Below are positions 18,127-34,206 of a stretch of 64,000 nt of DNA, in pieces; position 1 is the stretch's first letter; the number at the start of each line of letters is the position of its first letter. The stretch is from positions 3,431,283 to 3,495,282 of the forward strand of contig NZ_CP132359.1 of the NCBI RefSeq assembly GCF_030758975.1, in the 5' to 3' direction. Origin of the DNA: Bosea beijingensis (GTDB taxonomy: Bacteria > Pseudomonadota > Alphaproteobacteria > Rhizobiales > Beijerinckiaceae). The notes under the pieces are model-generated. The model did no database searches and was not told where the DNA came from. It worked only from the letters and a program-made list of their open reading frames with translations. The position numbers and the translations under genes are program-made.

Positions 18127-19320
18127 CTATTGCAGCGCCTTGAAGATCAGTGCGGTATTGAGGCCGCCGAAGGCGAAGGAATTCGACATCGCGATCGGGA
18201 TCGGCATCGGCCGGGCCCGGTTCGGCACGCAGTCGATGTCGCAGTCCGGGTCGGGCGCGTCGAAATTGGCGGTCGGCGGGGCCATGCCGTTCTCGATCGC
18301 CATGATCGTCGCGATCGCCTCGAAGGCGCCGGCGGCGCCGAGCGCATGGCCGGTCACACCCTTGATCGAGGAGGTCGGCGGCACGGGCCGATCACCGAAA
18401 AGCCGTTTCAGCGCCTGCGTCTCGGCCCGGTCATTGGCGCGCGTGCCGGTGCCGTGGGCGTTGACATAGGCGAGATCGCCGGCATCGAGACCGGCATCGG
18501 CCAGCGCCAGGGCCATGGCTCGTGTCATGCCGTCGACATTGGGCGCGACGATGTCACCCGCATCGGCGCTGAAGCCGAAGCCGGCGGCCTCGATCGTGGG
18601 TGCGAGGCCCCGGCCGCGCGCATGCGCCTCGGTCTCCAGTACGATGATGCCAGCGCCTTCTCCGAGCATGAGGCCGTCGCGCCCGGCCGCGAAGGGCCGG
18701 CAGGCGGTGCGCGACATGATCTTCATCGCATCCCAGGCGAGCAGCGTCCCGGCCGAGAGCGGGGCTTCCGTGCCGCCGGCGATGACGATGTCGGCGAGGC
18801 CTGCGCGCAGGAACTGCATGGCCGTGCCGATGGCGTGGCTGGAGGACGCGCAGGCGCTCGACGTCACGAAACAGGGCCCGGTCGCGCCTGTCGCCATCGA
18901 GACCCAGCTTGCCGACGAGCTCACCATGACCTTGGCCACAGTCATCGGGTGAGGGCGCTTGTTCTGGGTATAGAGTCGGGAATACTGATCATCGGTGCTG
19001 CATTGCCCGCCGGCAGAGTTGCCGAGGATGACGCCGACGCGCTCGGGGCGGGGCAGGCCGGTGCCGAGGTCGGCGGCGGCCAGAGCCTGGCGCGCCGCGG
19101 CAACGGCGAACAGCGCGTTGCGATCACAGGCCGAGGGCGACAGGCCGAGCCCTTCCATGAAGCCCTGGTTCCGCACCTCCGCCACGCGGATGCTCTTGCC
19201 GGGCTGCGTCGAGGCTTCCCCGAAATCTCCGTTTCCTGCCAGCAGGGCCTGCCAGAAGCTATCGGTATCGCTGCCGGCTGGGGAGACGATGCCGAGACCC
19301 GAGACGACGATCCGCGTCAT
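18127..19320 (-). CDS. Beta-ketoacyl-ACP synthase (FabF-like)
   Basis: 397 residues of the thiolase fold. The condensing-enzyme triad is intact: Cys157 in SSACASSSHA, His289 in NAHGTGTRAND and His325 in GVTGHALGAAG, plus Lys320. It condenses malonyl-ACP with an acyl chain on ACP or the enzyme. Its start overlaps the stop of its own ACP gene by 4 bp (ATGA), which marks a dedicated pair outside the housekeeping fab genes. Similar pairs serve specialised lipids, polyketide-like chains or lipid A chains. With an alpha-oxoamine synthase 3 kb away it may supply the acyl donor. Confidence 0.9.
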   Translation of the reverse strand: MTRIVVSGLGIVSPAGSDTDSFWQALLAGNGDFGEASTQPGKSIRVAEVRNQGFMEGLGLSPSACDRNALFAVAAARQALAAADLGTGLPRPERVGVILGNSAGGQCSTDDQYSRLYTQNKRPHPMTVAKVMVSSSASWVSMATGATGPCFVTSSACASSSHAIGTAMQFLRAGLADIVIAGGTEAPLSAGTLLAWDAMKIMSRTACRPFAAGRDGLMLGEGAGIIVLETEAHARGRGLAPTIEAAGFGFSADAGDIVAPNVDGMTRAMALALADAGLDAGDLAYVNAHGTGTRANDRAETQALKRLFGDRPVPPTSSIKGVTGHALGAAGAFEAIATIMAIENGMAPPTANFDAPDPDCDIDCVPNRARPMPIPIAMSNSFAFGGLNTALIFKALQ

Positions 19321-19616
19321 GCCACCTGCTTCTTGGCGAGCAGCTTGGCGACCTCGTTGCAGAGCTGGCCGATCGTCTTCACATCGTTGATATCGTTGTT
19401 GGCGTTGTAGTCGATCTCGATGCCGAAATGATCTTCGAGCTTGAAGATGATTTCGACGAAATCATAGGAGTTGAAACCGGTATCCTCCAGCAAGGTCTCC
19501 GGACCCCAGGCGACGTCGGCAAGCTTTCCGCGATCGCGCGACGGGTTCTCCGCGATGACCTGCTTGAGCATCCCGATCAGAAAATCGACCGTGATCGTCT
19601 GTGCCTCACTCGACAT
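19317..19616 (-). CDS. Acyl carrier protein
   Basis: 99 residues. The phosphopantetheine site reads DTGFNSYDFVEIIFKLEDHF with Ser50, a variant of the usual DSLxxVE motif. The acidic helical character and size match ACPs; the 20-residue N-terminal extension is longer than in housekeeping AcpP (about 78). It is the first gene of a two-gene operon with the ketoacyl synthase, overlapping by 4 bp, so it is probably that enzyme's partner. A specialised ACP for a secondary lipid product is most likely. Confidence 0.88.
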   Translation of the reverse strand: MSSEAQTITVDFLIGMLKQVIAENPSRDRGKLADVAWGPETLLEDTGFNSYDFVEIIFKLEDHFGIEIDYNANNDINDVKTIGQLCNEVAKLLAKKQVA

Positions 19617-20000: not shown

Positions 20001-20729
20001 TCAGAAGCGATAGCTCACGCCGGCACGGCCGCTGTGATAGCGCGGCTCCTGGGTGCCGCTGAAGCCGGGGAAGGCCCGCTGCGAGTCGTTCTGCATGTGC
20101 TCGAACTGGGTGAAGCGGTATTCGACGCGGGCCGACAGCGACTGCGTGAAAGCGTATTCGATACCGCCGCCGACCGTATAGCCGGTCGCCGTCTTGCTGA
20201 AGCTCTCGGAGGTGCCCGGCCAGTTCCAGTAGGTGCTCTTGATGTCGGCGACGGCGAGACCGCCGGTCGCGTAGAGCAGCGCCGGTCCGATCGCATAGCC
20301 GAGGCGCAGGCGCAGCGAGCCTTGCGTATCGATCTCCGTCCGGCCGCGGCCGCCAGGATTGAACGGTGCGACCGGCGGGTCGGTGAAGCCGCCCTTGACC
20401 TTGCCGAACTCGATGTCGCCTTCGACACCGGCGACGAATGCGCCGAACTGGTAGTTTGCGCCGACATGGGCGCCGCCGATGAAGCCATCCGGCTCGAAGC
20501 GGTTCTTCAGGCCGACATAGCCCATCGTCGCGGTGAGGAATTCCTTGGTGGTGTCGACGCCCCAGCTATAGCCGGCCTGGCCGCCGACATAGAAGCCGGT
20601 CCAGGTCATCGCCGGCGGCATCATCATCGGCGGCGGACCCTTGCGGGTGCTCGGCAGGTCGGCGGCCATCGCGCCGGACGACGCGCTCAGAAGCGTTGCT
20701 GCGAGAAGGAAATGGCGGAAGCCACGCAT
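20001..20729 (-). CDS. Outer membrane beta-barrel protein, Omp25/RopB-like
   Basis: 242 residues. A signal peptide (MRGFRHFLLAATLLSASSG, cleavage near AMA-ADLP) is followed by an eight-stranded barrel: AMTWTGFYVGGQAGYSWG at the start, alternating hydrophobic strands and a C-terminal aromatic (GVSYRF). Members of this family (Brucella Omp25, Rhizobium RopB) are abundant outer membrane proteins of Hyphomicrobiales. A strong hairpin after the stop fits high expression. It stands alone between the ACP-synthase pair and a chemoreceptor gene. Confidence 0.9.
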   Translation of the reverse strand: MRGFRHFLLAATLLSASSGAMAADLPSTRKGPPPMMMPPAMTWTGFYVGGQAGYSWGVDTTKEFLTATMGYVGLKNRFEPDGFIGGAHVGANYQFGAFVAGVEGDIEFGKVKGGFTDPPVAPFNPGGRGRTEIDTQGSLRLRLGYAIGPALLYATGGLAVADIKSTYWNWPGTSESFSKTATGYTVGGGIEYAFTQSLSARVEYRFTQFEHMQNDSQRAFPGFSGTQEPRYHSGRAGVSYRF

Positions 20730-20910: not shown

Positions 20911-22080
20911 TCAGGCTGCCGCGATCGGGAGCGCTTCCCGCAGGGCTTTCGCCTGCTCCGCCATATCGCGCGCGCCTTGAAGCGTCTGCTCGGCCGCGGC
21001 GTTCAGTTCCCCTGCTTCGTTGCCGAGGCTGCGCAGGGCGTCCGCCATCGTGCCGACGCCGGCCGCCGTCTCGGTCATGCGCGTGATGATGGCGAGCGTC
21101 GCCTCCCGCTGGCTCGTGGCGGCGGCGTCGACCACATGGGCGAGCTCCTCGAGCTCGTTGATGGAATCGGCGATGGTCGCGACAGCCTCGACGGCCTCGC
21201 GGCTGGCCGACTGCATCGCCTGGATCTGGTTGCGCGCGTCGATCGTGGTCGCGCTGGTCTGGGCGGACAGTGCCTTCACCTCGCTGGCGACGACGGCGAA
21301 ACCTCGCCCCGCCGAGCCTGCGCGCGCCGCCTCGATCGTCGCGTTGAGGGCGAGCAGGTTGGTCTGGCGGGCGATGTCGCTGATCACGTCGATCAGTGCG
21401 CCGATCCGGTGCGAGGCCTGGGTGAGATTGGTGATCGTCCGATTGGCGTTGCGGGCGTTGTCGACCGCCTCGGCTGCGATCTGGCGGGTCTGGGCCACCT
21501 GCGAGTTCATGTTGGCGGAGGTCTCGATCAGGGTATCGGCCGCCCTTGAGGCGGAATCCATTTCGTTCTCGACGGTGAGGACGGCCGTGCCGGTCTGCTG
21601 TGCCCGCTCGCTGATCGACGCGGCGCGGCCGATGACCGCGCCGATGTCGAATCGCAGCCGTTCGGAGGCCTGCGCGAGCCGGCGCATCCGGTCTCCGGTT
21701 TCGGCGTCGAGAGCCGGTGACCGCACAAGGTCGTGAGCTGCAGTCTCGTCGGTCCGGTTCTGCGCCGCACGCTCTTCGGCTCGCCGGCTTTCGGCCAACC
21801 GGTAATGCTCGACGGCATTGCGCAACGGAGCGAGCCAGCCCGGCACCGTATCGCTGGAAAGGCCCGTGCGCGCCTGCCCTGACAGCTCTTCCGCCATGGC
21901 TGTCGCCGCGTTGCGCAGCGCGCTTGCCGCGCGGATCAGCGCGACGATGCCGGCGATGGCGATCAGGATCGACGCCCCATGCAGCCAGAGGCCGGCGGCG
22001 GGGACGACCAGCCCGCCGAGATTGCACAAGCTGCCCAGCGTCAGAATTGCGAAACTGGAGCGGAGCGGGTGCTTGGACAA
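20911..22080 (-). CDS. Methyl-accepting chemotaxis protein without periplasmic domain
   Basis: 389 residues. Two closely spaced N-terminal membrane segments (about residues 10-30 and 35-50) leave almost no periplasmic loop. A coiled-coil adapter and the canonical signalling tip [20 protein letters not shown], continuing into [17 protein letters not shown], follow. Without an outside ligand domain it may sense a membrane, cytoplasmic or energy signal, or act with a partner. The start appears to be TTG at 22080; no ATG fits in frame until after the membrane region. It lies opposite the alpha-oxoamine synthase gene. Confidence 0.88.
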
Positions 22081-22529: not shown

Positions 22530-23864
22530 ATGATCACGGACGAGAAGCTGCCGGGTGCGGCGCTGACAGGAAGCATGCGCGATTTCCGGGTGCCGGGCGG
22601 TGCCGACCTGGAGCGGCGCGTCGGCAATTTCTTCAAGTGGCAGAACCTGCGGCGCCAGAACGGCCTCTGGCCGTTCTCCCGGGCGACCGATTTCGGGCCG
22701 CGCACCGAAGTCCTTGCCACCGACGATCGCGGCATCAACATGGAAGGCGTGAACTTCGCCTCGCAGGACTATCTCAGCATGTCCTCGCATCCCGCCGTCA
22801 AGGAGACGGCGCTGGCGGCGATCGAGCGCTACGGCGTCCATAGTGCCGGCTCGGCCGCGCTCGTCGGCAACACCACGCATTCGGTCGCGCTGGAGCGCAA
22901 GATCGCCGACTTCCTGCAGATGGAAGATTGCCTGCTCTATCCGACGGGTTGGGGCGCCGGCTACGGCGTGATCCGCGGCTTGGTGCGCTCCTCCGACCAT
23001 ATCGTCATGGACGCGCTGGCCCATACCTGCCTGCAGGAAGGCGCCAACGCCGCCACCCGCAACATCTACCTGTTCCGCCATCTCGATCTCGCCCATTGCC
23101 GGCGCTGGCTGGAGAAGATTCGCTCCACCGATACCGAGAACGGCATCATGGTGGTGACCGAGGGCCTGTTCTCGATGGACTCCGACACGCCCGACATCGC
23201 GGCGATGCAGGAGCTCTGCAACGAATTCAACGCCACGCTGATGGTCGACGTCGCCCATGACCTGGGTGCGCTCGGACCGGGCGGTCGCGGCCATATCGGC
23301 GCGCAGGACATGCTCGGCAAGGTCGACATCGTGATGGGCTCGTTCTCGAAGACCTTCGCCTCGAATGGCGGCTTCGTCGCGGTCAAGGAGCGGCCGGTCA
23401 AGGAATACCTGCGCTTCTACAGCCCGACCACGACGTTCTCGAATGCGATGTCGCCGGTCAATGCCGCGATCGTCCTCAAGGCCTTCGAGATCATCGAGAC
23501 CGACGAAGGCCAGGTCCTGCGTGACGAGCTGATGGCCAATGTCCTGGAGCTGCGGCGCCAGGTCCGTGAAGCCGGGCTCGATTACTATGGCGATCCTTCG
23601 GCCATCGTCGCGGTGAAGATGGGCTCGGAAGGCCTCGCGCGCCTGGTCAGCCGGGAGCTGCCGGAACTCGGCCTGCTCGCCAACCTCGTCGAGTATCCCG
23701 CCGTCGGCAAGGGTGCTGCGCGCTTCCGCATGCAGGTCATGGCGAAGCACACCCGCCAGAACGTCACCGACGCGGTGCAGCGCATCGTGGCCGCCAGGGC
23801 CAAGGCCGAGATCGCGCTCGCGACGATGGAAGCCGGTCGTCCGGCTCTGCGGGCGGTGGCTTGA
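22530..23864 (+). CDS. Alpha-oxoamine synthase (CqsA/LqsA- or SPT-like PLP enzyme)
   Basis: 444 residues of PLP fold type I. Visible sites: NFASQDYLSMSSHP (76-89, substrate loop), His165 in DALAHTCL (ring stacking), DVAHDLG with Asp240 (pyridine nitrogen) and GSFSKTF with Lys274 (Schiff base). Enzymes of this family condense an amino acid with an acyl-CoA or acyl-ACP, losing CO2: KBL, BioF, ALAS, serine palmitoyltransferase and the autoinducer synthases CqsA and LqsA. A 45-residue N-terminal extension (FFKWQNLRRQNGLWPF) distinguishes it from BioF. Bio or heme genes are absent nearby; an ACP-ketoacyl synthase pair lies on one side and a sensor-kinase block on the other. A signal molecule or sphingoid-type lipid is therefore more likely than biotin or heme. 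Confidence 0.88.
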   Translation: MITDEKLPGAALTGSMRDFRVPGGADLERRVGNFFKWQNLRRQNGLWPFSRATDFGPRTEVLATDDRGINMEGVNFASQDYLSMSSHPAVKETALAAIERYGVHSAGSAALVGNTTHSVALERKIADFLQMEDCLLYPTGWGAGYGVIRGLVRSSDHIVMDALAHTCLQEGANAATRNIYLFRHLDLAHCRRWLEKIRSTDTENGIMVVTEGLFSMDSDTPDIAAMQELCNEFNATLMVDVAHDLGALGPGGRGHIGAQDMLGKVDIVMGSFSKTFASNGGFVAVKERPVKEYLRFYSPTTTFSNAMSPVNAAIVLKAFEIIETDEGQVLRDELMANVLELRRQVREAGLDYYGDPSAIVAVKMGSEGLARLVSRELPELGLLANLVEYPAVGKGAARFRMQVMAKHTRQNVTDAVQRIVAARAKAEIALATMEAGRPALRAVA

Positions 23865-23870
23865 GCGATG

Positions 23871-23888
23871 CCGGCACGGATGTGCCGG
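23871..23888 (+). terminator. Hairpin after oxoamine synthase gene
   Basis: CCGGCAC and GTGCCGG with a four-base loop begin 6 bp after the stop. The stem is short and no T-run follows, so termination is only possible. Transcription may continue into the GGDEF-EAL gene 104 bp further on. Confidence 0.4.
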
Positions 23889-23991
23889 GACCCTTGAAGG
23901 CCCGGGGCATGACCTACCGTAAGAGTCATTCAACTTTTACGTCTTATGCTCCGGTCAGAGCCTGCGCTCTACGATTGAGGACTGGATATCT

Positions 23992-25869
23992 ATGAGCCCG
24001 AGCCAGAAGGCGAGCGCCATCAGCATTTCGTTGCCGGACAGCCAGGAGGGCGGGCGGGCGAGCCCGGCCTCGCCGGGGCGGATTCTTCTGGTCGACGATG
24101 TCCTCGACAACCGCATCGTGCTGGGACGCAGGCTGCAACGGCGCGGCTACGAGATCGTCGAGGCCGATTGCGGCGAAGCCGCGCTGGGACTCCTGGCGCG
24201 GGAGAGCTTCGATCTCGTGCTCCTCGACGTGATGATGCCCGGCATCAGCGGGCTGGCCGTCGTCAGCGAGATCCGCAAGACCCTGACGTCCCAGCAATTG
24301 CCGGTCATCATGGTCACCGCCAAGTCGCTGACCGACGACGTCGTCGAGGCCCTGCAATGCGGCGCCGACGACTACATCACCAAGCCGGTCGATTTCGAGG
24401 TCGCCCATGCCCGCATCGTCGTGCAGGTCAACCGCAAGCGCGCCGCCGACACGCTGGAGCAATGCGTCAGGGATCGCACCGCCGCGCTGTCTGAAGCCAC
24501 GACGCAAATGACCCGCGAGGTCGAGCAGAAGCGCCAGTCGACGCTGCGCGCCGAATTCCTCTCACGCCATGACAGCCTGACCAAGCTGATGAACCGCGCC
24601 GCCTTCCTGGAGGCAGCGACGGCCGCCAGCGATGCGCATGCCGCCGGCGGGGCGCCCTACGACATCCTTTTCCTCGATCTCGACCGCTTCAAGATCATCA
24701 ACGACACCTTCGGCCACGCGGTCGGAGACCTCGCCCTCAAGGGGCTGGCCGAGCGGCTGGAGGCGATCATCTCGCCCAAGGACGCACTCGCCCGCTTCGG
24801 CGGCGACGAGTTCCTCGTGCTCCACCCTTGCGGGCCGGGAGACGAGCCGACGGCGACGCTGGCCGAGCGCATCATTCGCAAGCTGACCGAGCCGCTCGTC
24901 GTCGACAGCCACGAGGTTGCCGTCGGCGTCAGCGTCGGCATCGCCGCGCCGGCCGGCATGCACGAGCCGGCCGAGACCACGATCGGCCATGCCGACATCG
25001 CGATGTACCGCGCCAAGAAGGATGGCGGCGACCGGTTCCGCGTGTTCGATCCGGAGCTCGCCGAGGCGTCGCGCCGCCGCTCCGAGCTCGAACGCGACCT
25101 GCGCGTCGCGCTCAAAAGCGGACAGTTCAACATCGTCTACCAGCCGGTCGTCGAGCTTCGGGACCACACGATCAGCGGCTTCGAGGCCCTGTTGCGCTGG
25201 AACCACCCCAAGCGCGGTGCGGTCTCGCCGGCGGAGTTCATTCCGATCGCCGAGGAGACCGGCGTCATCGTCCAGATCGGCGAATGGGTCCTGCGCCAGG
25301 CCTGCGCCACGGCGATGACCTGGCCGAACGACGCCAAGGTCGCGGTCAACCTCTCGGCGATCCAGTTCGAGCGCAGCTCCGTCGTCGCGATCGTGATGAG
25401 CGCGCTCGCCGCGTCCGGCCTCGCGCCCCAGCGTCTCGAACTCGAGATCACGGAATCTCTCATCCTGCTCAGCGCGCCGCATACGCTGGAAGCGCTCCGC
25501 CAGTTGCGCAAGCTCGGCGTGCGGATCGTCATGGATGATTTCGGCACCGGCTATTCCAGCCTGAGCTACCTGCGCGATTTCGAGTTCGACAAAATCAAGG
25601 TCGACCAATCCTTCATCCGCTCGCTGCCGACCGACGAGGGGACCCGTGCCATTGTCGCCTCGATCGCCAAGCTCGCCCATACGCTGGGCGTCGCCACCAC
25701 GGCCGAAGGCGTCGAGACCGAGGAGCAGCTTCAGCATGTCAGGACGAATGGCATCGGCCTCGTCCAGGGCTTCTTCTTCGGCAAGCCGATCTCGGCCACG
25801 GAAATCGATGGCGTCTTTGAAGCCCTCGACGGCAACGGCAACGCGGCCGGCTTTCCGGTCAGCTTCTGA
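23992..25869 (+). CDS. Response regulator with GGDEF and EAL domains
   Basis: 625 residues. The receiver domain (about 28-150) has the phospho-acceptor Asp79 in LVLLDVMMPG. A linker coiled coil leads to a GGDEF domain whose signature FGGDEF (about 269-274) is intact, then an EAL domain with EALLRW near 397, EITES, DDFGTGYSSL and AEGVETEEQ, all intact. It can therefore in principle both make and degrade c-di-GMP under phosphorylation control. It lies downstream of the oxoamine synthase gene on the same strand, and two orphan-like sensor kinases follow within 3 kb; they are its candidate partners. Confidence 0.93.
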   Translation: MSPSQKASAISISLPDSQEGGRASPASPGRILLVDDVLDNRIVLGRRLQRRGYEIVEADCGEAALGLLARESFDLVLLDVMMPGISGLAVVSEIRKTLTSQQLPVIMVTAKSLTDDVVEALQCGADDYITKPVDFEVAHARIVVQVNRKRAADTLEQCVRDRTAALSEATTQMTREVEQKRQSTLRAEFLSRHDSLTKLMNRAAFLEAATAASDAHAAGGAPYDILFLDLDRFKIINDTFGHAVGDLALKGLAERLEAIISPKDALARFGGDEFLVLHPCGPGDEPTATLAERIIRKLTEPLVVDSHEVAVGVSVGIAAPAGMHEPAETTIGHADIAMYRAKKDGGDRFRVFDPELAEASRRRSELERDLRVALKSGQFNIVYQPVVELRDHTISGFEALLRWNHPKRGAVSPAEFIPIAEETGVIVQIGEWVLRQACATAMTWPNDAKVAVNLSAIQFERSSVVAIVMSALAASGLAPQRLELEITESLILLSAPHTLEALRQLRKLGVRIVMDDFGTGYSSLSYLRDFEFDKIKVDQSFIRSLPTDEGTRAIVASIAKLAHTLGVATTAEGVETEEQLQHVRTNGIGLVQGFFFGKPISATEIDGVFEALDGNGNAAGFPVSF

Positions 25870-25918
25870 AGGGCTCCCTGACTTTCGAGGTGTACGGACA
25901 AGTTCGATAACGAGAACG

Positions 25919-25948
25919 ACCCCGCGCCGGTCAGCACCGGAGCGGGGT
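25919..25948. terminator. Terminator-like hairpin between convergent genes
   Basis: ACCCCGC, one unpaired base and CCGG pair with CCGG, one unpaired base and GCGGGGT around a six-base loop. It sits between the convergent GGDEF-EAL and OmpW genes and could serve both. Confidence 0.65.
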
Positions 25949-25971
25949 TCGCGTTTCCGATCGCGCTTGTC

Positions 25972-26667
25972 TCAGAACTTGTAGGTCAGGCCGGTGTGTA
26001 CGACCGTGGGATCGAGCGTGACCGTTGCCTTGATCGGGACGGGGCCCATGTAACCTTGCGTCTTCGCGCGCAGGTAGACCTTCTTGACGTCGACGAAGAA
26101 GCCCCAGTTGCTGTCCAGCATGTAGTTGAAGCCGACCTGGCCGGTGAAGCCTAGGGCGTGATCGGTCTTGAGGCCGGTCACGACATGATCCCGGTTCTTG
26201 AAGATAACCATGAGCGCCGGGCCGGCGCCGACATAGGGCTGAAAGCGGCCGAGGCCGGTGAAATGGTACTGCGCGGTCAGGGCCATCGGGCCGCCATCGA
26301 CCTTGCCGAGCGTGCCGAGGCCGGTGAGCGAGCCGCGCGCCTCGACCTTGTTCAGGGGGGGGTAGCCGGCCGCGAGGCCGATCGCGAAATTCGGCGTGAA
26401 ATTGTAGCCCGCCTCGATCGCGAAGGTATAGGCATTGGGAACGCGGACATCGGCGCCCGGGATCGGGAAGCCGGCGGCGCTCATCTTCGCGCCCTCGGAA
26501 TAGAACAGCCCGGCCGGGCCGGCATGCAGGAAGAAGCGCTTGAAGGCCGGTTCCTGGAATGCGGGGGGCGGCGCATCGACGGGCCCCTGCAGCAGGTCGG
26601 CGGCTTGCGCACCAAAGGTGCCTGTGAGGCCAGCGAGCGCAGCCACGGCAACGAGAGGGAGGCGCAT
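25972..26667 (-). CDS. OmpW family outer membrane protein
   Basis: 231 residues from the ATG at 26667, which gives a clean signal peptide (MRLPLVAVAALAGLTGTFGA, cleavage after AQA). The mature part shows the OmpW pattern: FFLHAGPAGLFYSEGAKM, then AIEAGYNFTPNFAIGLAAGY, FQPYVGAGPALMV, NYMLDSNWGFFVDVKKVYL and the terminal aromatic YKF. OmpW forms an eight-stranded barrel thought to pass small hydrophobic molecules. An upstream ATG at 26703 would add twelve polar residues before the signal peptide and is less likely. A hydrophobic-ligand pore beside a putative lipid-signal synthase is suggestive but unproven. Confidence 0.88.
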   Translation of the reverse strand: MRLPLVAVAALAGLTGTFGAQAADLLQGPVDAPPPAFQEPAFKRFFLHAGPAGLFYSEGAKMSAAGFPIPGADVRVPNAYTFAIEAGYNFTPNFAIGLAAGYPPLNKVEARGSLTGLGTLGKVDGGPMALTAQYHFTGLGRFQPYVGAGPALMVIFKNRDHVVTGLKTDHALGFTGQVGFNYMLDSNWGFFVDVKKVYLRAKTQGYMGPVPIKATVTLDPTVVHTGLTYKF

Positions 26668-26975
26668 CTGGTCGATCCTGTGACGGCGAGGAACCTCGAT
26701 CATCGAGGTCTCCCGTTGATATTCTATTAGCCTTAACGAAAGGTTAGTCGCGCGTCGGTCGGTGAAGATCGCTTCATCAACAGGAAACTTCCTCATCGGA
26801 AGCGGCGGCCGGGAGAGCGCCTGGCCCGGCCATGCGTTTTGCCGCCAAAGCGCGGGGTGCGCGTGCCTGGCGCGGCCCTGCGATCGTGTGAGCTGCGGGC
26901 TTTCTTCCTTGCCTTGTCGTGCCTGCTTCAGGCGAACCGGTCCCGCCCCGGGAGCGGCGTCGAAGGACGGGGGCC

Positions 26976-27344
26976 TCAGGCCCGGCTCAGGCAGTTTTGG
27001 ATCTTGCCCACCAGCCGCGGCAGGTCGACCGGCTTGGTGTCGAAATCCGCGCAACCCACCGCAACGCTGCGTGCCTGGTCGCTGGCCAGCGCATGCGCCG
27101 TCAGGGCGATCACGGGAATCCGCGCCGTGGAGGGCGAGGCCTTGATCTGCTGCGTCGCTTCCCAGCCGTCCATGTCGCCGAGCGCGACGTCCATGAGAAT
27201 CAGGTCGGGCGTCTCGCTCCTGGCCATGGCCACGCCGCTCGGGCCGTCGGGGGCGCAGAGCACGGTGAAGCCCTGCCTTTGCAGGCGCCGGCTCAGCATG
27301 TCCCGGTTCATCTCGTTGTCTTCGACGAGCAGGATTTTAGGCAT
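26976..27344 (-). CDS. CheY-like single-domain response regulator
   Basis: 122 residues consisting only of a receiver domain: acidic pocket LLVEDNE, phospho-acceptor Asp52 in LILMDVALGDMDG, Thr in ALTAHA and Lys104 in DFDTKPVDL. There is no output domain, so it acts by protein contact or in a phosphorelay. It starts 8 bp inside the end of the upstream histidine kinase gene, so it is translationally coupled to that kinase and is its likely partner. Confidence 0.92.
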   Translation of the reverse strand: MPKILLVEDNEMNRDMLSRRLQRQGFTVLCAPDGPSGVAMARSETPDLILMDVALGDMDGWEATQQIKASPSTARIPVIALTAHALASDQARSVAVGCADFDTKPVDLPRLVGKIQNCLSRA

Positions 27345-28740
27345 GGGCAATGGTCGACCGTGATGTGGACATGGAGCGAGGGGAGGCGGAGGCGCGCACC
27401 GCGTTCGGAAGGATGAGCGTGAAGGTGCAGCCGCTGCCGGGGCGGTTCTCAACGGAAATCTCGCCACCGGAGAGCCTTGCGATCTTCTGGCACAAGGCAA
27501 GGCCGAGGCGGGCGCCGCCATACTTGCTGCCGTTCGCATCGCCGGTATCGGTGAACTGCTCGAACAGCACCGGGAGCAGCTCGGGGTCGATGCCGCCGCC
27601 GGTATCCTCGACCGTCACGGTGAGGTCGCCCCGCGTGGATCTCGCGGCGACGAGATCGATCCGGCCGTTGCGCGTGAACTTGATGGCGTTGACCAGCAGT
27701 TCCGCCAGAATCTGTCGGAGCTTGGCGCGGTCGGCCGTGAACTGGATGGGTGCCAGCACGGTGTCGACGACGATCTCGGTGCCGTTGTCGCGCGCTCGCA
27801 GCCGGAAATCCGCCGCGACGGCCTCGACGATATCAGCCGGGTCGATCGCTTCCAGATGGAGCTCCATCCTGCCGGCCTCGATCTTGGCGAGATCGAGGAT
27901 CTCGTTGACCAGCTTCAGCAGCAGATGGCCGGAGCTCTGGATCCGGCTCAGGTCCTCGACCGCCTCCTCGTCACCTTCCTCGCGAACCTCCTCCAGCAGG
28001 ATTTCGCTATAGCCGATGACCGCGTTGAGCGGGGTGCGCAGCTCGTGGCTCATCTTGGCCAAGAATTCCGTCCGGGCGGCGCCGGCGCGCTCGGTCGCCT
28101 CGATCGCCTCGCGCAGCTCGGTCGCGGTCTGGAGGTGGCCCTGCATCGCAGTTTCCAGCTCGGTCTGCGAGGCGAGGAGGCGGGCATAGAACAGGGCCAT
28201 CATGGCCACGTACAGCGAGGCGGCGATGGTCGAGATCAGGCCCAGCCCTTCGCGCGCCGAGACGTCCAGGCGGCTCGGCATCCCGCCGCCGAGAAACCAG
28301 ATCGCTCCGAAAACGGCGAAATTGGCGGCGAACATGCTGAGCGCGATCGAGCGCAGCCTCGGCTCCTCGCCGATATAGAACAGCGCCAGGAGCGGGATCG
28401 TCAGGACCCAGGGCAATGTCGGGGAGGTGACGCCGCCATAGAAATAGCAGCTCCAGAGGATGCAGAAATTCAGGTTCTGGATCGAGGCCAGCGCCAGCGT
28501 ATTGTAGTGCCCCCAGGCCCGCAGCACGAAAGGAAAGATCCAGAAGGCGGAGATCGACAGTGCCAAGACCAGGACGGGAAACCCGGGATCCCGGTCAAAG
28601 ACATAAAGGGCGAGCGGAACAGTATTGCCGATGAAAGGCCCGAAGATGTGGCTGATGAGGAACATCCGCACTTGCTTGAGCTTCTGGCGGTCCTGAGCGA
28701 TCGCGGCCGGGATGAACCAGTCGACGAGGTCGCTCAACAT
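27337..28740 (-). CDS. Membrane histidine kinase, six-helix sensor (copy 1)
   Basis: 467 residues from the ATG at 28740. The N-terminal 190 residues form about six membrane segments with short loops and the motif YGGVTSPTLPW. HisKA follows (KMSHELRTPLNAVIGYSE, phospho-His232), then an ATPase domain with DTGGGIDPELLPVLFEQF and a variant G2 box, GGARLGLAL. The start aligns with the paralogous kinase encoded at 29009 (LVDWFIP against FIDWFLP); ATGs at 28770 and 28836 would lengthen it. With no sizeable periplasmic domain, the ligand is likely hydrophobic and bound in the membrane, as in CqsS. It is coupled to the CheY-like gene. Confidence 0.9.
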   Translation of the reverse strand: MLSDLVDWFIPAAIAQDRQKLKQVRMFLISHIFGPFIGNTVPLALYVFDRDPGFPVLVLALSISAFWIFPFVLRAWGHYNTLALASIQNLNFCILWSCYFYGGVTSPTLPWVLTIPLLALFYIGEEPRLRSIALSMFAANFAVFGAIWFLGGGMPSRLDVSAREGLGLISTIAASLYVAMMALFYARLLASQTELETAMQGHLQTATELREAIEATERAGAARTEFLAKMSHELRTPLNAVIGYSEILLEEVREEGDEEAVEDLSRIQSSGHLLLKLVNEILDLAKIEAGRMELHLEAIDPADIVEAVAADFRLRARDNGTEIVVDTVLAPIQFTADRAKLRQILAELLVNAIKFTRNGRIDLVAARSTRGDLTVTVEDTGGGIDPELLPVLFEQFTDTGDANGSKYGGARLGLALCQKIARLSGGEISVENRPGSGCTFTLILPNAVRASASPRSMSTSRSTIAHA

Positions 28741-29008
28741 CGTCCCGAGGCGGTTTGCGCCTTGTGCCATCGACGTGAAATCCCGGATACCTGAGAAGAG
28801 GCGGAGAATGCGGAAACAACCGGCTGGATTGATCATGCGAACCCGTTCCGCATGAAAGCAATGTCAATCGCGCAAAGGCATTAAAGCGGCGTGAATCTCG
28901 GTTGTTGCAAGCGATTGACGCTGAGTCTGATTGTTAACGACCTCCTCCTATCCTCGAAGTGGAAACACGCGTCCCGCACGCCGCATCGACATCAAGGCAC
29001 GCAACAGG

Positions 29009-30418
29009 ATGATGAAGTTTATCGACTGGTTCCTTCCGGACGCGGCGAAATTCGACCGCGCGGAGCAGGGCCTCGCCCGCAACTTCGTCTTCACTCATCT
29101 GTTCGGCCCGCTGCTGAGCCAGCCGATCGGCGTCTTCCTCTACCTGACCGACCCCGATCCCGGCTTCGCCTGCTGGACGATCATCATCTGCACCTGGCTG
29201 TTCTGGCTGCTTCCCTTCGTGCTGAAGCTGACAGAGCGGCTGCAACTGGCGGCGCTGATCTCGGTTGAGCTTCTCGCCTTCACCGCCTTGTTCGGCGCCT
29301 TCCATTACGGTGGCGTCAGCTCGCCCTTCCTGCCCTGGCTGATCATCAGCCTGCTGCTCGGCTTCTTCTATCTGCACGACCGGCCGCTGCTGGTGCTCGG
29401 CCTGTTCGCATCGAACATCCTGACCTTCTCGGCCGCCTACATGGTCTACGGCTTCCCGACCCATGTTCCGCTCGACAAGCTGCAGAAGGTCGGCTGGATC
29501 TCGATCCTGGCCGCGGCGGTCTACATGTCCTGGATGGCCGCCTACTACGCCAGCATCACTTCGAAACGCTCCGAGATCGAGCGCGAGACCGAGCGCCATC
29601 GCGAGACCGCGCAGCGCCTCCAGGCTGCCAAGGAGGCGGCCGACGAGGCGACGCATCTGAAGTCGATCTTCGTCGCCAAGATGAGCCATGAATTGCGCAC
29701 GCCGCTCAATGCCGTGATCGGTTATAGCGAGATGCTGCTGGAGAGCTTCGAGGACCAGGGCCGCAGCGAAAGCAAGATCGCCGACCTGCAGCGCATCAAC
29801 GCGGCCGGAAAGCATCTTTTGGCGCTGGTCGCCGACGTGCTCGACATGTCGCGGATCGAGACGCAGAGCGACAAGTTCAAGATCACGAGCTTCGATGTCG
29901 ACTGGCTGGCGAAGGATGTCGTCTCGACGGCCAAGCATCTGGTCGAGGAGAACGGGAGCAAGCTCACCCTGACCGCGATCGGCAAGCTGGGAACGATGCA
30001 GTCCGATCCAACCAAGATCCGGCAGGTCATCCTCAACCTGCTCGGCAACGCCGCCAAGTTCACGGCGAACGGCTCCGTCACGCTGGCGGTGCGGCGGGAG
30101 GTGAAGCCGGGCGGCGACTGGATCGAGTTCCAGGTCCGCGACACCGGCATCGGCATCGCGCCGGAGGGGCTTGCCCGGCTTTTCCAGAATTTCGGCCAGG
30201 CCACCGCCGGGATCGCCGGGCAGTATGGCGGTACCGGTCTCGGGCTTTCGATCAGCCAGAAGCTCTGCGTGCTGATGGGCGGCAGCATTTCGGTGACGAG
30301 CGATCTCGGCAAGGGCTCCTGCTTTATCGTGCGCCTGCCGGCCGCCGCCCGGGCCGTGAGCGAGACCCGCCAACCGGAGACCGCCGTCGCCGCCGCGCCC
30401 AAGGTGGCGGCGGCCTGA
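29009..30418 (+). CDS. Membrane histidine kinase, six-helix sensor (copy 2)
   Basis: 469 residues from the ATG at 29009. It is a paralogue of the divergent kinase: HLFGPLLSQPIG, FHYGGVSSPFLPW, then HisKA KMSHELRTPLNAVIGYSE (His227) and ATPase motifs DTGIGIAPEGLARLFQNF and YGGTGLGLSISQK, all intact. The sensor is again six membrane helices with short loops. No receiver gene follows; it may act on the CheY-like or the REC-GGDEF-EAL protein nearby. A TTG at 28931 would add 26 residues without family character. The two kinase genes diverge from a 268-bp promoter region. Confidence 0.92.
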   Translation: MMKFIDWFLPDAAKFDRAEQGLARNFVFTHLFGPLLSQPIGVFLYLTDPDPGFACWTIIICTWLFWLLPFVLKLTERLQLAALISVELLAFTALFGAFHYGGVSSPFLPWLIISLLLGFFYLHDRPLLVLGLFASNILTFSAAYMVYGFPTHVPLDKLQKVGWISILAAAVYMSWMAAYYASITSKRSEIERETERHRETAQRLQAAKEAADEATHLKSIFVAKMSHELRTPLNAVIGYSEMLLESFEDQGRSESKIADLQRINAAGKHLLALVADVLDMSRIETQSDKFKITSFDVDWLAKDVVSTAKHLVEENGSKLTLTAIGKLGTMQSDPTKIRQVILNLLGNAAKFTANGSVTLAVRREVKPGGDWIEFQVRDTGIGIAPEGLARLFQNFGQATAGIAGQYGGTGLGLSISQKLCVLMGGSISVTSDLGKGSCFIVRLPAAARAVSETRQPETAVAAAPKVAAA

Positions 30419-30434: not shown

Positions 30435-31940
30435 TCAGCCCCGCGCCGCTTCCTTTCCGGCCTTGCCCGCCCGTAGCGAGGCGATGACCGTCCAGCCGAT
30501 GATGCCGATCGTGATCGCGGCCAGCACCGCGGCGATCGGCCGGTCGACCAGGCCGATCAAGCGGCCGTCGGACTTGATCATCGAGTTGATGAAGTATTCC
30601 TCCAGCAACGGGCCGAGCACGACGCCGAGGATCACCGGTGCGACCGGGAAATCGTTCTCCTCCAGCACGAAGGCGAGCACACCGAAGGCGAGCATGACTC
30701 CGATGTCGAAGATCGAGTTGTTGATCGCGTAGGAGCCGACGATCGCGAAGAGCAGGATGATCGGCATCAGGACGCGCCGGGGCACCGAAAGCACCCGCGT
30801 CGCGATCTTGATGATCGCCCAGCCGAGCGGCAGCATCAGCAGGTTGGCGATCACGAAGACCAGGAAGAGCGCATAGACGTTCTCGGGGTTGTTGACGAAG
30901 ATCGTCGGCCCCGGCGCCATATTCTTCATCATCAGCACGCCGATGGCGATGGCGGTGATCGAATCGCCGGGAATGCCGAAGACCAGTGCCGGGATCCAGG
31001 CGCCGGCGAGCGAGGAGTTGTTGGAGGCGCCGGCCTCGATCAGCCCCTCGGGATGGCCGGTGCCGAATTTCTCGGGCTCCTTCGAGAAGCGCTTGCTCAT
31101 CGCGTAGGACATCCAGGCGGCCATGTCGGCGCCGCTGCCCGGCTGGATGCCGATGACCGTGCCGAGTGCGCTGCCGCGGATGAGCTGCCAGGGATATTGC
31201 TTGGTCAGCCGCCACATGTTCGCGAAGATCGGGCCGATCTTCTTGACCACGACCTGCGGCGCGCGGCTGTCCGAGATCATGTGGCGCATCACCTCCGAGC
31301 AGGCGAACATGCCGACCATCATCGGAATCAGCGAAACGCCGCCGAGCATCTCGGTCGAATCGAAGGTGAAGCGCGGCTGGCCGGCCGGATTGTTCATGCC
31401 GATCATCGCGATCATCAGGCCGATGAGCAGCGAGATGCAGGCTTTCAGCGGCGTCGAGGAGCCGATGAAGACGGCGCCGCCGAGGCCGAGCATGACGATC
31501 CAGAAGAACTCGACCGAGCCGAAGCCGAGCGCGAAATCGGCAATGGCGGGGGAGGCGACCATCATCACCGCCGTGCCGAACAACCCGCCGAGCACCGAGA
31601 ACCACAGGCCGATGCCGAGCGCGAGCTCGGGCTTGCCCTGCAGGGTCATCTTGTAGGAATCGTCGACATAGGCCGCCGAGGCCGGCGTGCCGGGAATGCG
31701 CAGCAGGCAGCCGGGAATGTCGCCGGAAAAGATCGCCATGGTCGAGGTCGTGACGATGGCGGCGATGGCCGGCACCGGCGGCATGAAGAAGGTCAGCGGC
31801 ACCAGCAGCGCAGTCGCCATCGTGGCGGAGAGGCCGGGGATGCAGCCGACGACGAGGCCGTAGATCGCCGAGGCGGTGATGACGAAGAGCACATAGGGAT
31901 CGAGCACCATCCCCAGCGCGGTCACATAGGCGTCGAGCAT
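30435..31940 (-). CDS. tctA: TTT transporter large membrane subunit TctA
   Basis: 501 residues with about twelve membrane segments and the signature LVVGCIPGLSATMATALLVP near residue 30. The ATG at 31940 starts 4 bp after the tctB stop, so the two are coupled; the longer open frame upstream overlaps tctB and lacks family sequence. It is the permease of the third TTT system, in the operon gntR-tctC-tctB-tctA. Its divergence from the other two TctA copies points to a different substrate. Confidence 0.95.
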   Translation of the reverse strand: MLDAYVTALGMVLDPYVLFVITASAIYGLVVGCIPGLSATMATALLVPLTFFMPPVPAIAAIVTTSTMAIFSGDIPGCLLRIPGTPASAAYVDDSYKMTLQGKPELALGIGLWFSVLGGLFGTAVMMVASPAIADFALGFGSVEFFWIVMLGLGGAVFIGSSTPLKACISLLIGLMIAMIGMNNPAGQPRFTFDSTEMLGGVSLIPMMVGMFACSEVMRHMISDSRAPQVVVKKIGPIFANMWRLTKQYPWQLIRGSALGTVIGIQPGSGADMAAWMSYAMSKRFSKEPEKFGTGHPEGLIEAGASNNSSLAGAWIPALVFGIPGDSITAIAIGVLMMKNMAPGPTIFVNNPENVYALFLVFVIANLLMLPLGWAIIKIATRVLSVPRRVLMPIILLFAIVGSYAINNSIFDIGVMLAFGVLAFVLEENDFPVAPVILGVVLGPLLEEYFINSMIKSDGRLIGLVDRPIAAVLAAITIGIIGWTVIASLRAGKAGKEAARG

Positions 31941-31944
31941 GGCG

Positions 31945-32418
31945 TCACCAGCGGAACGGTTCGAGCGGTCCCCAGGGCAGTTGCACGCCGAGGCCGAGAT
32001 AGAAGATCGAGTGGATAACGAGCGCGGTCGCGAGCGCGAGACCGACGGCGTGAAGCGGTTTCGTGCCACCCACGACGAAGAGCACGACGAGGATCGCCGC
32101 CGCCGTGATCAGGAAGCCGAGAGGCTCGGCGCAGAGCATGTAGAAGACGACCGCTGCCGGAACGAGCAGCAGGCGCAGCACCGCCGTGCCGCTGCGGGCC
32201 CAGTCGGCGCGGCCGACCAGCGGGCCGGCATCGGTGGCGCGGGCGCCGTTCACCGCAAGGATCGCCGCGCAGAGCGCCAGCAATCCGGCGAGGATCAGCG
32301 GGAAGGCCGAGGGGCCGAGCGGCTGCTCGGACGGATTGGGCAGATTCCACGAGGCGAAGGCCACGAGGCCTGCCAAGGCGAGGACGACGAGCCCCGCGAA
32401 GAGATCGTTGAACTTCAT
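31945..32418 (-). CDS. tctB: TTT transporter small membrane subunit TctB
   Basis: 157 residues with four hydrophobic segments (first: LFAGLVVLALAGLVAFASW). The ATG at 32418 follows a long GC-rich hairpin that separates it from tctC. Position between tctC and tctA and topology give the assignment. Confidence 0.88.
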   Translation of the reverse strand: MKFNDLFAGLVVLALAGLVAFASWNLPNPSEQPLGPSAFPLILAGLLALCAAILAVNGARATDAGPLVGRADWARSGTAVLRLLLVPAAVVFYMLCAEPLGFLITAAAILVVLFVVGGTKPLHAVGLALATALVIHSIFYLGLGVQLPWGPLEPFRW

Positions 32419-32440
32419 GATGCGTCCGATGTTGCGGCGG

Positions 32441-32473
32441 CGGAGGGCGCGGCGGCGGCTGCCGCGCCCTCCG
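32441..32473 (-). other. Intercistronic hairpin after tctC
   Basis: A perfect 13-bp GC-rich stem (CGGAGGGCGCGGC and its complement) with a seven-base loop lies between tctC and tctB in the leftward transcript, 24 bp after the tctC stop. It probably favours tctC over tctBA expression, as proposed for similar stems after binding-protein genes. Confidence 0.7.
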
Positions 32474-32497
32474 ATCAGGTGGCGATCGGCCTTCCGT

Positions 32498-33466
32498 CTA
32501 CTGGCGCAGACGCAGGCCGAGCGCGCCCATGATCTCGCCGTTGTTCTTGTGCTGGGTCGCGAGGAAGGTGCCGAAGGCCGGACCCTTGGCGAAGGCGTAA
32601 CCGAAGCCGCGCTCCGCGAGGAAGTTCTTGTAAGCGTCGGAATTCGCGACCTTGTCCGTGGCTTCGACGAGGCGCGCGGTCACGTCCGCGGGCAGGCCGG
32701 CGGGAGCGGCGAGGCCGCGCCAGGTGCCGCCCTCATACTCCTTGCCGATCGCCTGCTTGACGGTGGGCACCTTCGGGAAGGCCGAGATCACGTCCTTCGA
32801 CATCACGGCGAGCGCCTTGACGCGGCCGGCGTCGAACATCGCCTTGCCTTCCGGCAGCGAGGACGGGACGATCTGGACGCCGCCCGAGGCCAATTCTTGG
32901 AAACCGGGCGCGGCGCCCTGGCTCGGCACCACCGTGACGCTCTTCGGGTTGATGCCCTCGAGCTGGAGCAGGCCGGCGAAGGCGAGGTGATAGGCCGCGC
33001 CGGCAGCCATACCGGAGAGCTTGTAATGGCCGACGGGCTGCTTCCTGATGTCGTCGAGCGCGGCGCGCAGGTCGCCCCAGGGCGAGTTCGCGGCGACATT
33101 GAAGGCGGCCGAGTCGAAATTCACCAGCGCCAGCGGCGTCAGCTTCTCATAGGTGAAGGGCGCCGTGTTCGACCAGTAATAGGTCGTGACCTCGGCCGTC
33201 GCGAGGCCGATCGTGTAGCCGTCCGGCTTGGCGTTGACGATCTCGGTATGGCCGACCACGCCGCCGCCGCCCGTGCGGTTGACGACGTTTACCGGCTTGC
33301 CGAGTTCCTTCTCGAGACCTGCCGCCAGGATGCGCGCGACCGCGTCCGTGCCACCACCGGCGGCCCAGGGCACGACCAGGGTGATTGGCCGTTCGGGCCA
33401 GGCGGCGAAGGCGGGGAAGGCGAGCGCCGCGACCGTGGCGGCCAGCAGCATCGTTCTGATCTTCAT
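32498..33466 (-). CDS. tctC: TTT substrate-binding protein TctC (Bug family)
   Basis: 322 residues. The signal peptide MKIRTMLLAATVAALAFPAF ends at AFA and the family start AAWPERPITLVVPWAAGGGT follows, with KPVNVVNRTGGGGVVGH after it. GGGAGAAA precedes the ATG, which overlaps the gntR stop by 4 bp (ATGA), so the regulator and binding protein are co-translated. It feeds the TctAB pair downstream. Confidence 0.94.
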   Translation of the reverse strand: MKIRTMLLAATVAALAFPAFAAWPERPITLVVPWAAGGGTDAVARILAAGLEKELGKPVNVVNRTGGGGVVGHTEIVNAKPDGYTIGLATAEVTTYYWSNTAPFTYEKLTPLALVNFDSAAFNVAANSPWGDLRAALDDIRKQPVGHYKLSGMAAGAAYHLAFAGLLQLEGINPKSVTVVPSQGAAPGFQELASGGVQIVPSSLPEGKAMFDAGRVKALAVMSKDVISAFPKVPTVKQAIGKEYEGGTWRGLAAPAGLPADVTARLVEATDKVANSDAYKNFLAERGFGYAFAKGPAFGTFLATQHKNNGEIMGALGLRLRQ

Positions 33467-34206
33467 GACGTTTCTCCCGGTTCTGATTTTCTTGGTTTTT
33501 CTCCACCCGCGAGCATCGGGCTGGAAAGCATGTGGCCGCGCGTGTAGCCGAGCACCTGTCGCATCGCCTCGCGCGCCCGGTCGGCATCGCCGGCCGCGAT
33601 CGCATCGAGCACGGCCGCGTGGTTCGCCAGGTTTCCGGCGAAGACATCGACGGTGAAGTCGAACATGGCGCTGAGGATCGCTTCGATCGCGCCACGGAAG
33701 CTGCGCAGGATCGGGTTGTTGGTCGCGTCGAGGATCGCGAGATGGAAGCGCTTGTCGGCGGCGATCGCCGCCTGCGGGCTGTTCTGATCGGCCTCCATCG
33801 CGACGAAAGCGGCGCGGATGCGGGCGAGGTCTTCGGATGTGGCGCGCACGGCTGCGAGCGCCGCCGCTTCCGGCTCGATGATCGCGCGGGTCTCTTCCAG
33901 CGCGAGCAGCAAATTGCGGTCGAGGCCATCCTCGCTGCGCATCCAGCCGAGCACGTCGGGGTCGAGCAAGGTCCATTCGTGGAGTGGGCGCACCTGCGTG
34001 CCATGGCGTGGCCGCACGCTGAGGAGGCCCTTGGCGGTCAGGATCTTGACGGCTTCGCGGACGACGCTGCGGCCGGCGCCATAGCGCTCCGCCAGCTCGA
34101 ATTCCGGCGGCAGCACCGTTCCGGAGACGATTTCGCCCCGCACGATCGCGGCTCCGAGAGCTTGGACCATCGCCCCGATCTTGCCTGGCTTGCTGCGCTT
34201 CTGCAT
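33463..34206 (-). CDS. GntR family regulator, FCD (FadR) type
   Basis: 247 residues. An N-terminal winged helix (about 15-80: IVSGTVLPPEFELAERYGAG, then RSVVREAVKILTAKGLLSVR) is followed by an all-helical FCD effector domain with metal-ligand pattern in FHLAILDATNNPILRSF and the ALLDAIAAGD-type HAAVLDAIAAGDADRA motif. It is the first gene of the tctCBA operon and faces the DapA-family gene. A 21-bp palindrome of FadR-like appearance in between is its probable operator, so it likely controls both units in response to the substrate or a product, usually a sugar acid or other carboxylate in this family. Confidence 0.92.
   Translation of the reverse strand: MQKRSKPGKIGAMVQALGAAIVRGEIVSGTVLPPEFELAERYGAGRSVVREAVKILTAKGLLSVRPRHGTQVRPLHEWTLLDPDVLGWMRSEDGLDRNLLLALEETRAIIEPEAAALAAVRATSEDLARIRAAFVAMEADQNSPQAAIAADKRFHLAILDATNNPILRSFRGAIEAILSAMFDFTVDVFAGNLANHAAVLDAIAAGDADRAREAMRQVLGYTRGHMLSSPMLAGGEKPRKSEPGETS

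Follow-up and report, generated by a model that had tools for sequence, protein, structure and literature searches.

Does the group of genes around an alpha-oxoamine synthase (AOS) in Bosea beijingensis make and sense a chemical signal of its own? The genes lie within a window of 64,000 nucleotides (positions 3431283-3495282 of a 5.56 Mb contig), which is the whole stretch of DNA that was analysed. Beside the synthase they encode two paralogous histidine kinases with six transmembrane helices (6TM), HK1 and HK2, a stand-alone CheY-like receiver, and a REC-GGDEF-EAL protein of cyclic di-GMP (c-di-GMP) signaling. AOS enzymes join an amino acid to an acyl thioester. In CqsA/CqsS of Vibrio, LqsA/LqsS/LqsR of Legionella, and JqsA of Janthinobacterium, a synthase of the same superfamily is likewise genetically tied to a 6TM histidine kinase, and all 15 CqsA-family genes that were fetched have a kinase within 1.2 kb. 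For Janthinobacterium, PMC3566124 describes a strain deleted for jqsA.

The original prediction, made from the sequence of the window, was that the locus makes and reads a signal related to the hydroxyketones of these systems. That proposal stands in part. The genes behave as one unit across genomes, while the sensors lack sequence similarity to CqsS and LqsS. The reading favored here, with a probability of roughly 55%, is that the module is a non-orthologous analogue of the Cqs and Lqs systems. AOS would make a lipophilic ketone signal, the kinases would read it, and the output would pass to CheY and c-di-GMP.

A module shared among Alphaproteobacteria

The synthase gene (22530-23864, + strand) encodes 444 amino acids and is followed by the REC-GGDEF-EAL gene (23992-25869, +), whose GGDEF, EAL, DDFGTG, and AEGVE motifs are all intact. 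HK1 (27337-28836, -) and HK2 (28931-30418, +) are divergently oriented with 94 bp between them. Each has a sensor signature (GGVTSPT in HK1, GGVSSPF in HK2), a HELRTPL H-box, and an HATPase domain. The gene of the CheY-like receiver (26976-27344, -) overlaps that of HK1 by 8 nt. Between the REC-GGDEF-EAL and CheY genes, and thus within the locus, sits an outer-membrane beta-barrel gene of the OmpW family (25972-~26727, -; PF03922, E 8.5e-29), which the original prediction had overlooked. Start codons are uncertain for the OmpW gene and both kinases; HK2 is listed from a TTG and has an in-frame ATG close downstream. The synthase, both kinases, and the GGDEF-EAL protein have kept their catalytic motifs, and the open reading frames, domains, pyridoxal phosphate (PLP) residues, and kinase motifs all agree with the gene content first described. 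At least 95% identity is reached by four named proteins: two from Bosea, one from a Methylobacterium sp., and one from a Hyphomicrobiales metagenome-assembled genome (MAG).

Evidence that these genes belong together comes from three overlapping samples of genomes. Within the genus, AOS is found in 6 of 67 genomes (74-100% identity) and the kinase sensor in 7, in two copies each, including all six genomes with AOS. The seventh (G032) is a 91% complete draft in about 520 contigs. Of 298 genomes sampled from the family, 16 have AOS (near full length and at 59% identity or above), 15 have the sensor, and 14 have both (Fisher p 5e-21, phylogeny not corrected for). The mismatches are two genomes with AOS alone (G188 and G324) and one with kinases alone (G200), where the kinase contig ends inside the GGDEF-EAL gene. 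Four further family genomes lack a sensor and match AOS more distantly (46-52%). Of 230 genomes sampled from the class, three have AOS, five have the sensor, and three have both. The expectation that the genes would be kept together in relatives is thus borne out, and it is the genus and family counts that link AOS to the kinases.

This association does not require physical proximity. Nine of the 14 family genomes that hold both have them together; in the other five (G031 and four of genus g9) they lie on different contigs, and about 20 kb around AOS in all five (L102, L104, L107, L110, L111) no kinase match exceeds 26% identity. The module is therefore co-inherited even where AOS and kinases are unlinked. 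In L102, L107, L110, and L111, four genomes of one genus with their kinases elsewhere, an RND efflux pump (HlyD and AcrB type) lies directly upstream of AOS; Pfam was run on L102 only.

A scan of a species-genome collection gave 209 confirmed relatives, of which the best 80 were analysed. Going by their record titles, most are Alphaproteobacteria, chiefly of the Hyphomicrobiales, Caulobacterales, and Sphingomonadales; six mycobacteria and one Desulfonatronospira MAG are also among them. Near AOS in these 80 loci there are sensors in 65, two or more sensors in 47, a CheY (at least 45% identity) in 50, REC-GGDEF-EAL in 44, and an OmpW-like gene in 30 (tblastn match over at least half its length). 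Gene order varies between relatives; most commonly CheY-HK1 is divergent from HK2-REC-GGDEF-EAL, with AOS adjoining. REC-GGDEF-EAL adjoins HK2 in 12 of 14 kinase loci; it adjoins AOS in the window and in L109, and was not found in L097. The CheY-like receiver of the window is 59-87% identical to the one adjoining HK1 in 13 of these 14 loci, none being found in L098. Mirror-tree correlations of 0.85-0.93 (43 loci) were obtained without a species-tree control and carry no weight here. Taken together, AOS, the two divergent 6-helix kinases, the CheY-like receiver, and the REC-GGDEF-EAL protein are a conserved module.

A search of 14 genomes that carry AOS but showed no kinases next to an AOS found sensors in five. 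Three (L192, L193, L196) are a single lineage with kinases truly distant from AOS; L192, which is the same genome as G904 (same coordinates), and L196 sit together on short branches. The other two were struck as unlinked cases. In Sphingomonas parva, L164 is the second of two AOS copies, and the sensors (G945:C9) stand beside the other one, L161. In L199 the contig stops 1.4 kb past AOS, so its kinases may be neighbors after all. No sensors were found in G188, G324, the genome of L184, or any of the six mycobacterial genomes. The mycobacterial AOS proteins (L173, L175, L176, L182, L186, L190), at 63-65% identity, look like a transferred synthase with another role.

Several variants and neighbors may be mentioned. 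In nine loci, mostly of sphingomonads (L161, L169, L174, L177, L179, L180, L183, L185, L191), the module is enlarged, with a further kinase and one to three additional receivers lying between HK2 and the GGDEF-EAL gene. A complete module of alphaproteobacterial type also appears in a record titled Frankia sp. RB7 (L135), likely an issue of naming or contamination. In the window, a gene for an OMP_b-brl outer-membrane protein (20001-20729, -) is a recurrent neighbor and possibly associated; its cluster is present in 14 of 100 fetched loci, a set in which some genomes are counted twice (for instance L094/L132, L097/L141, L106/L156). A methyl-accepting chemotaxis protein (MCP)-type chemoreceptor (20911-22080, -) adjoins AOS, and a weak MCP match (36%) lies near AOS in L131. 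Directly after HK2, genes at 30435-33600 resemble a tripartite tricarboxylate transporter (TctA, TctB, solute-binding protein), as judged from translations only. A FabF-like ketosynthase (18127-19320, -) and a divergent acyl carrier protein (19317-19616, -), whose genes overlap at their ends, were considered as the acyl supply for AOS. They were excluded from the module because they occur near AOS (at least 45% identity) in only 1 of the 80 named loci, a MAG of the same genus (L130).

The synthase and its candidate receptors

AOS has its PLP lysine at Lys274, and its other catalytic residues are His165, Asp240, His243, and Arg398/Arg400, roles which we take from the fold family. Since these residues are common to the whole superfamily, SPT, BioF, KBL, and ALAS included, they are not diagnostic of CqsA or LqsA. 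The phylogenetic tree used here holds 57 of 104 sequences, including 11 of 15 CqsA rows (L068, with no frame above 280 aa, was left out). In it the AOS family and three diverged paralogues form a separate clade of 23 rows with 100/100 support, and CqsA/LqsA form their own clade of 11 rows, also at 100/100. On this basis AOS stands apart from SPT, BioF, and KBL as a clade of its own, as the earlier proposal had required of the synthase with respect to SPT and BioF. NCBIfam cut-offs for BioF, KBL, and ALAS are missed as well (272/426, 246/460, and 178/339 bits).

The AOS family is marked by a conserved N-terminal GSMRDFRVP extension and by SQDYLS instead of SNDYLG; Gln79 of AOS is Asn in the KBL, BioF, ALAS, and CqsA rows compared (up to four per group). 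Two of the diverged paralogues, L066 and L067 from the same bacterial family, have lost both the His aligned with His165 and the His of VDxAH and are therefore possible pseudoenzymes. Their genomes yielded no sensors of the HK1/HK2 family.

AlphaFold predicts six long helices joined by short loops for the sensor of HK2 (pLDDT 96, pTM 0.88), and the sensor of HK1 is homologous to it (hhalign 100%). A GGxxSP signature is present in 138 of 141 sensors, and a GGxxSP...W loop between helices 3 and 4 is conserved. The sensor alignment has 57 rows, 55 from 83 non-redundant picks and the two of the window.

The kinase membrane part had been said to follow CqsS in layout. In the models, CqsS/LqsS-type sensors likewise have six helices and short loops, Trp is kept as the third residue of helix 4 in both groups, and the predicted folds appear to be similar. 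Profile similarity is at decoy level. Compared with 15 CqsS/LqsS-type sensors, the HK1/HK2 type scores 16.7 in hhalign, and 32 of 100 permuted decoys score as high; two halves of CqsS, as positive control, score 255. Homology to CqsS was not found with local or global hhalign, using permuted and reversed decoys. The likeness thus appears, with moderate confidence, to be one of fold and layout only. Used by itself, Foldseek finds nothing at E<=0.001 with either of the two sensor models. The sensor model also resembles the 6TM domain of class IIIa adenylyl cyclases (Rv1625c/Cya, AC9), at 8-10% identity and with a histidine kinase output here. In published work the adenylyl-cyclase 6TM domain has been replaced by the CqsS receptor.

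The proposed circuit can be described as follows. AOS would condense an amino acid with a fatty acyl thioester to a lipophilic aminoketone or hydroxyketone, as expected from the chemistry of its family. This product would partition to the inner membrane, and OmpW may give it passage through the outer one. Its binding site on the 6TM sensors of both kinases would lie near the conserved loop. Judging from gene pairing, the CheY-like receiver would get its phosphate from HK1 and the REC-GGDEF-EAL protein from HK2, and the signal would thereby set c-di-GMP and a CheY-type interaction.

Comparative genomics shows the coupling between AOS and the kinases. The output proteins encoded in the window, receivers and a c-di-GMP enzyme, have no DNA-binding part, which makes it more plausible that AOS supplies the input than that it is a target. 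A lipophilic, membrane-crossing product fits the constant presence of 6TM kinases, the OmpW-like gene in many loci, and the RND pump beside AOS in four genomes. Compared with Cqs, Lqs, and Jqs, the synthase is of another clade, the sensors cannot be aligned, and there are two paralogous kinases instead of one. A dedicated GGDEF-EAL output is present, and the module is found mainly in Alphaproteobacteria.

A more specific form of this proposal is advanced tentatively, at somewhat less than an even chance. The module would be a third, independently assembled lineage of quorum sensing by AOS-made lipophilic ketones, spread over Alphaproteobacteria. It would have paired RegB-like 6TM receptors and a new class of signal, acting directly on c-di-GMP and a stand-alone receiver.

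Redox sensor, lipid enzyme, or Cqs relative

The main rival to the analogue reading combines redox sensors of the RegB type with a lipid enzyme. Here HK1 and HK2 would read the quinone pool via the GGxxSP loop, and the AOS lipid would be an output or membrane modifier rather than a ligand. Homology of the sensors to RegB is a lead. The RegB/ActS/PrrB model NF033792 is the sole NCBIfam match of the HK2 sensor (E 4e-4), but it scores 19.4 bits against a cut-off of 350. The HK1 sensor has no NCBIfam match, and NF033792 is absent from the best 25 families for either full-length kinase. Global hhalign aligns 222 columns, over all six helices, with 0 of 60 permuted decoys scoring as high; in local mode the decoys reach the score in 4 of 100 and 1 of 60 cases. 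The hhalign probability is just 13-16%. A higher score, 32.3 versus 29.0, was reached by a reversed control in which the sensor family was aligned with its own reverse (14 columns).

The GGxxSP loop resembles GGXXNPF, given as a quinone motif in a passage of PMC8191878, although Ser replaces Asn. The sequences of HK1 and HK2 show no redox-box cysteine near the H-box, the window holds no RegA-type partner, and the genome has a true RegB of its own (L230). A redox sensor alone also leaves unexplained why this kinase family travels with AOS. This explanation is unlikely, at perhaps one chance in a handful.

Less probable still is a second explanation, that AOS makes a sphingoid-like or other envelope amino-lipid and that the kinases sense the state of the membrane or its lipids generally. 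Two SPT models do score 239 and 223 bits, and in mycobacterial L173 the AOS gene, without kinases, lies between two genes for patatin-like phospholipases. Yet all three SPT cut-offs are missed by far (239/223/156 bits versus 640/500/670), and SPT forms its own clade in the tree (support 100/99). Among the 25 most widespread neighbor clusters, inspected by eye over the first 70 residues, no sphingolipid gene was recognised.

True membership in CqsA/CqsS or LqsA/LqsS is very improbable. It would account for the shared superfamily, the six-helix kinases, and the similar predicted fold. AHxxLxEGxxAA is common to AOS and the CqsA rows and missing from the KBL, SPT, BioF, and ALAS rows (at most four per group), and GW of AOS is present in three of four CqsA rows; these motifs are a hint only. 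A joint clade of AOS and CqsA is not rejected by the approximately unbiased (AU) test (p 0.177). Long branches meet at the AOS clade, and the tree does not fix the deeper order. CqsS-like 6TM kinases from alphaproteobacteria are mentioned in PMC4821796. Against this, AOS reaches 185.8 bits where the curated CqsA/LqsA cut-off (NCBIfam NF005526) is 428, and each family has its own fully supported clade. The sensors have no CqsS profile match, and the residues invariant in the 15 CqsS/LqsS rows (PQPYEN and N..W..S; Q.YE, N, W, and S in CqsS) are not the invariant set of HK1/HK2-type sensors.

Finally, chance neighborhood without a functional link, which differing gene orders and unlinked AOS genes might suggest, is refuted by the co-occurrence counts in the three samples, unlinked lineages included.

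Meaning for chemical communication

No description of the module was found in the literature searched, a coverage that left subscription journals and preprints largely outside. If the analogue reading is true, c-di-GMP in many environmental alphaproteobacteria is wired to a chemical signal that has yet to be described. The proposal would be directly testable, since the synthase and both receptors are already identified. A receptor with its ligand would also become available for a fold of the adenylyl-cyclase 6TM type, for which the ligands are described as still debated in passages of PMC9433096 and PMC12414865.

Should the module prove to be a third lineage, the design of a synthase paired with a 6TM receptor would have arisen more than once, and quinone sensors of the redox type could be recruited as signal receptors. 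The module may be a form of chemical communication separate from those of Vibrio and Legionella.
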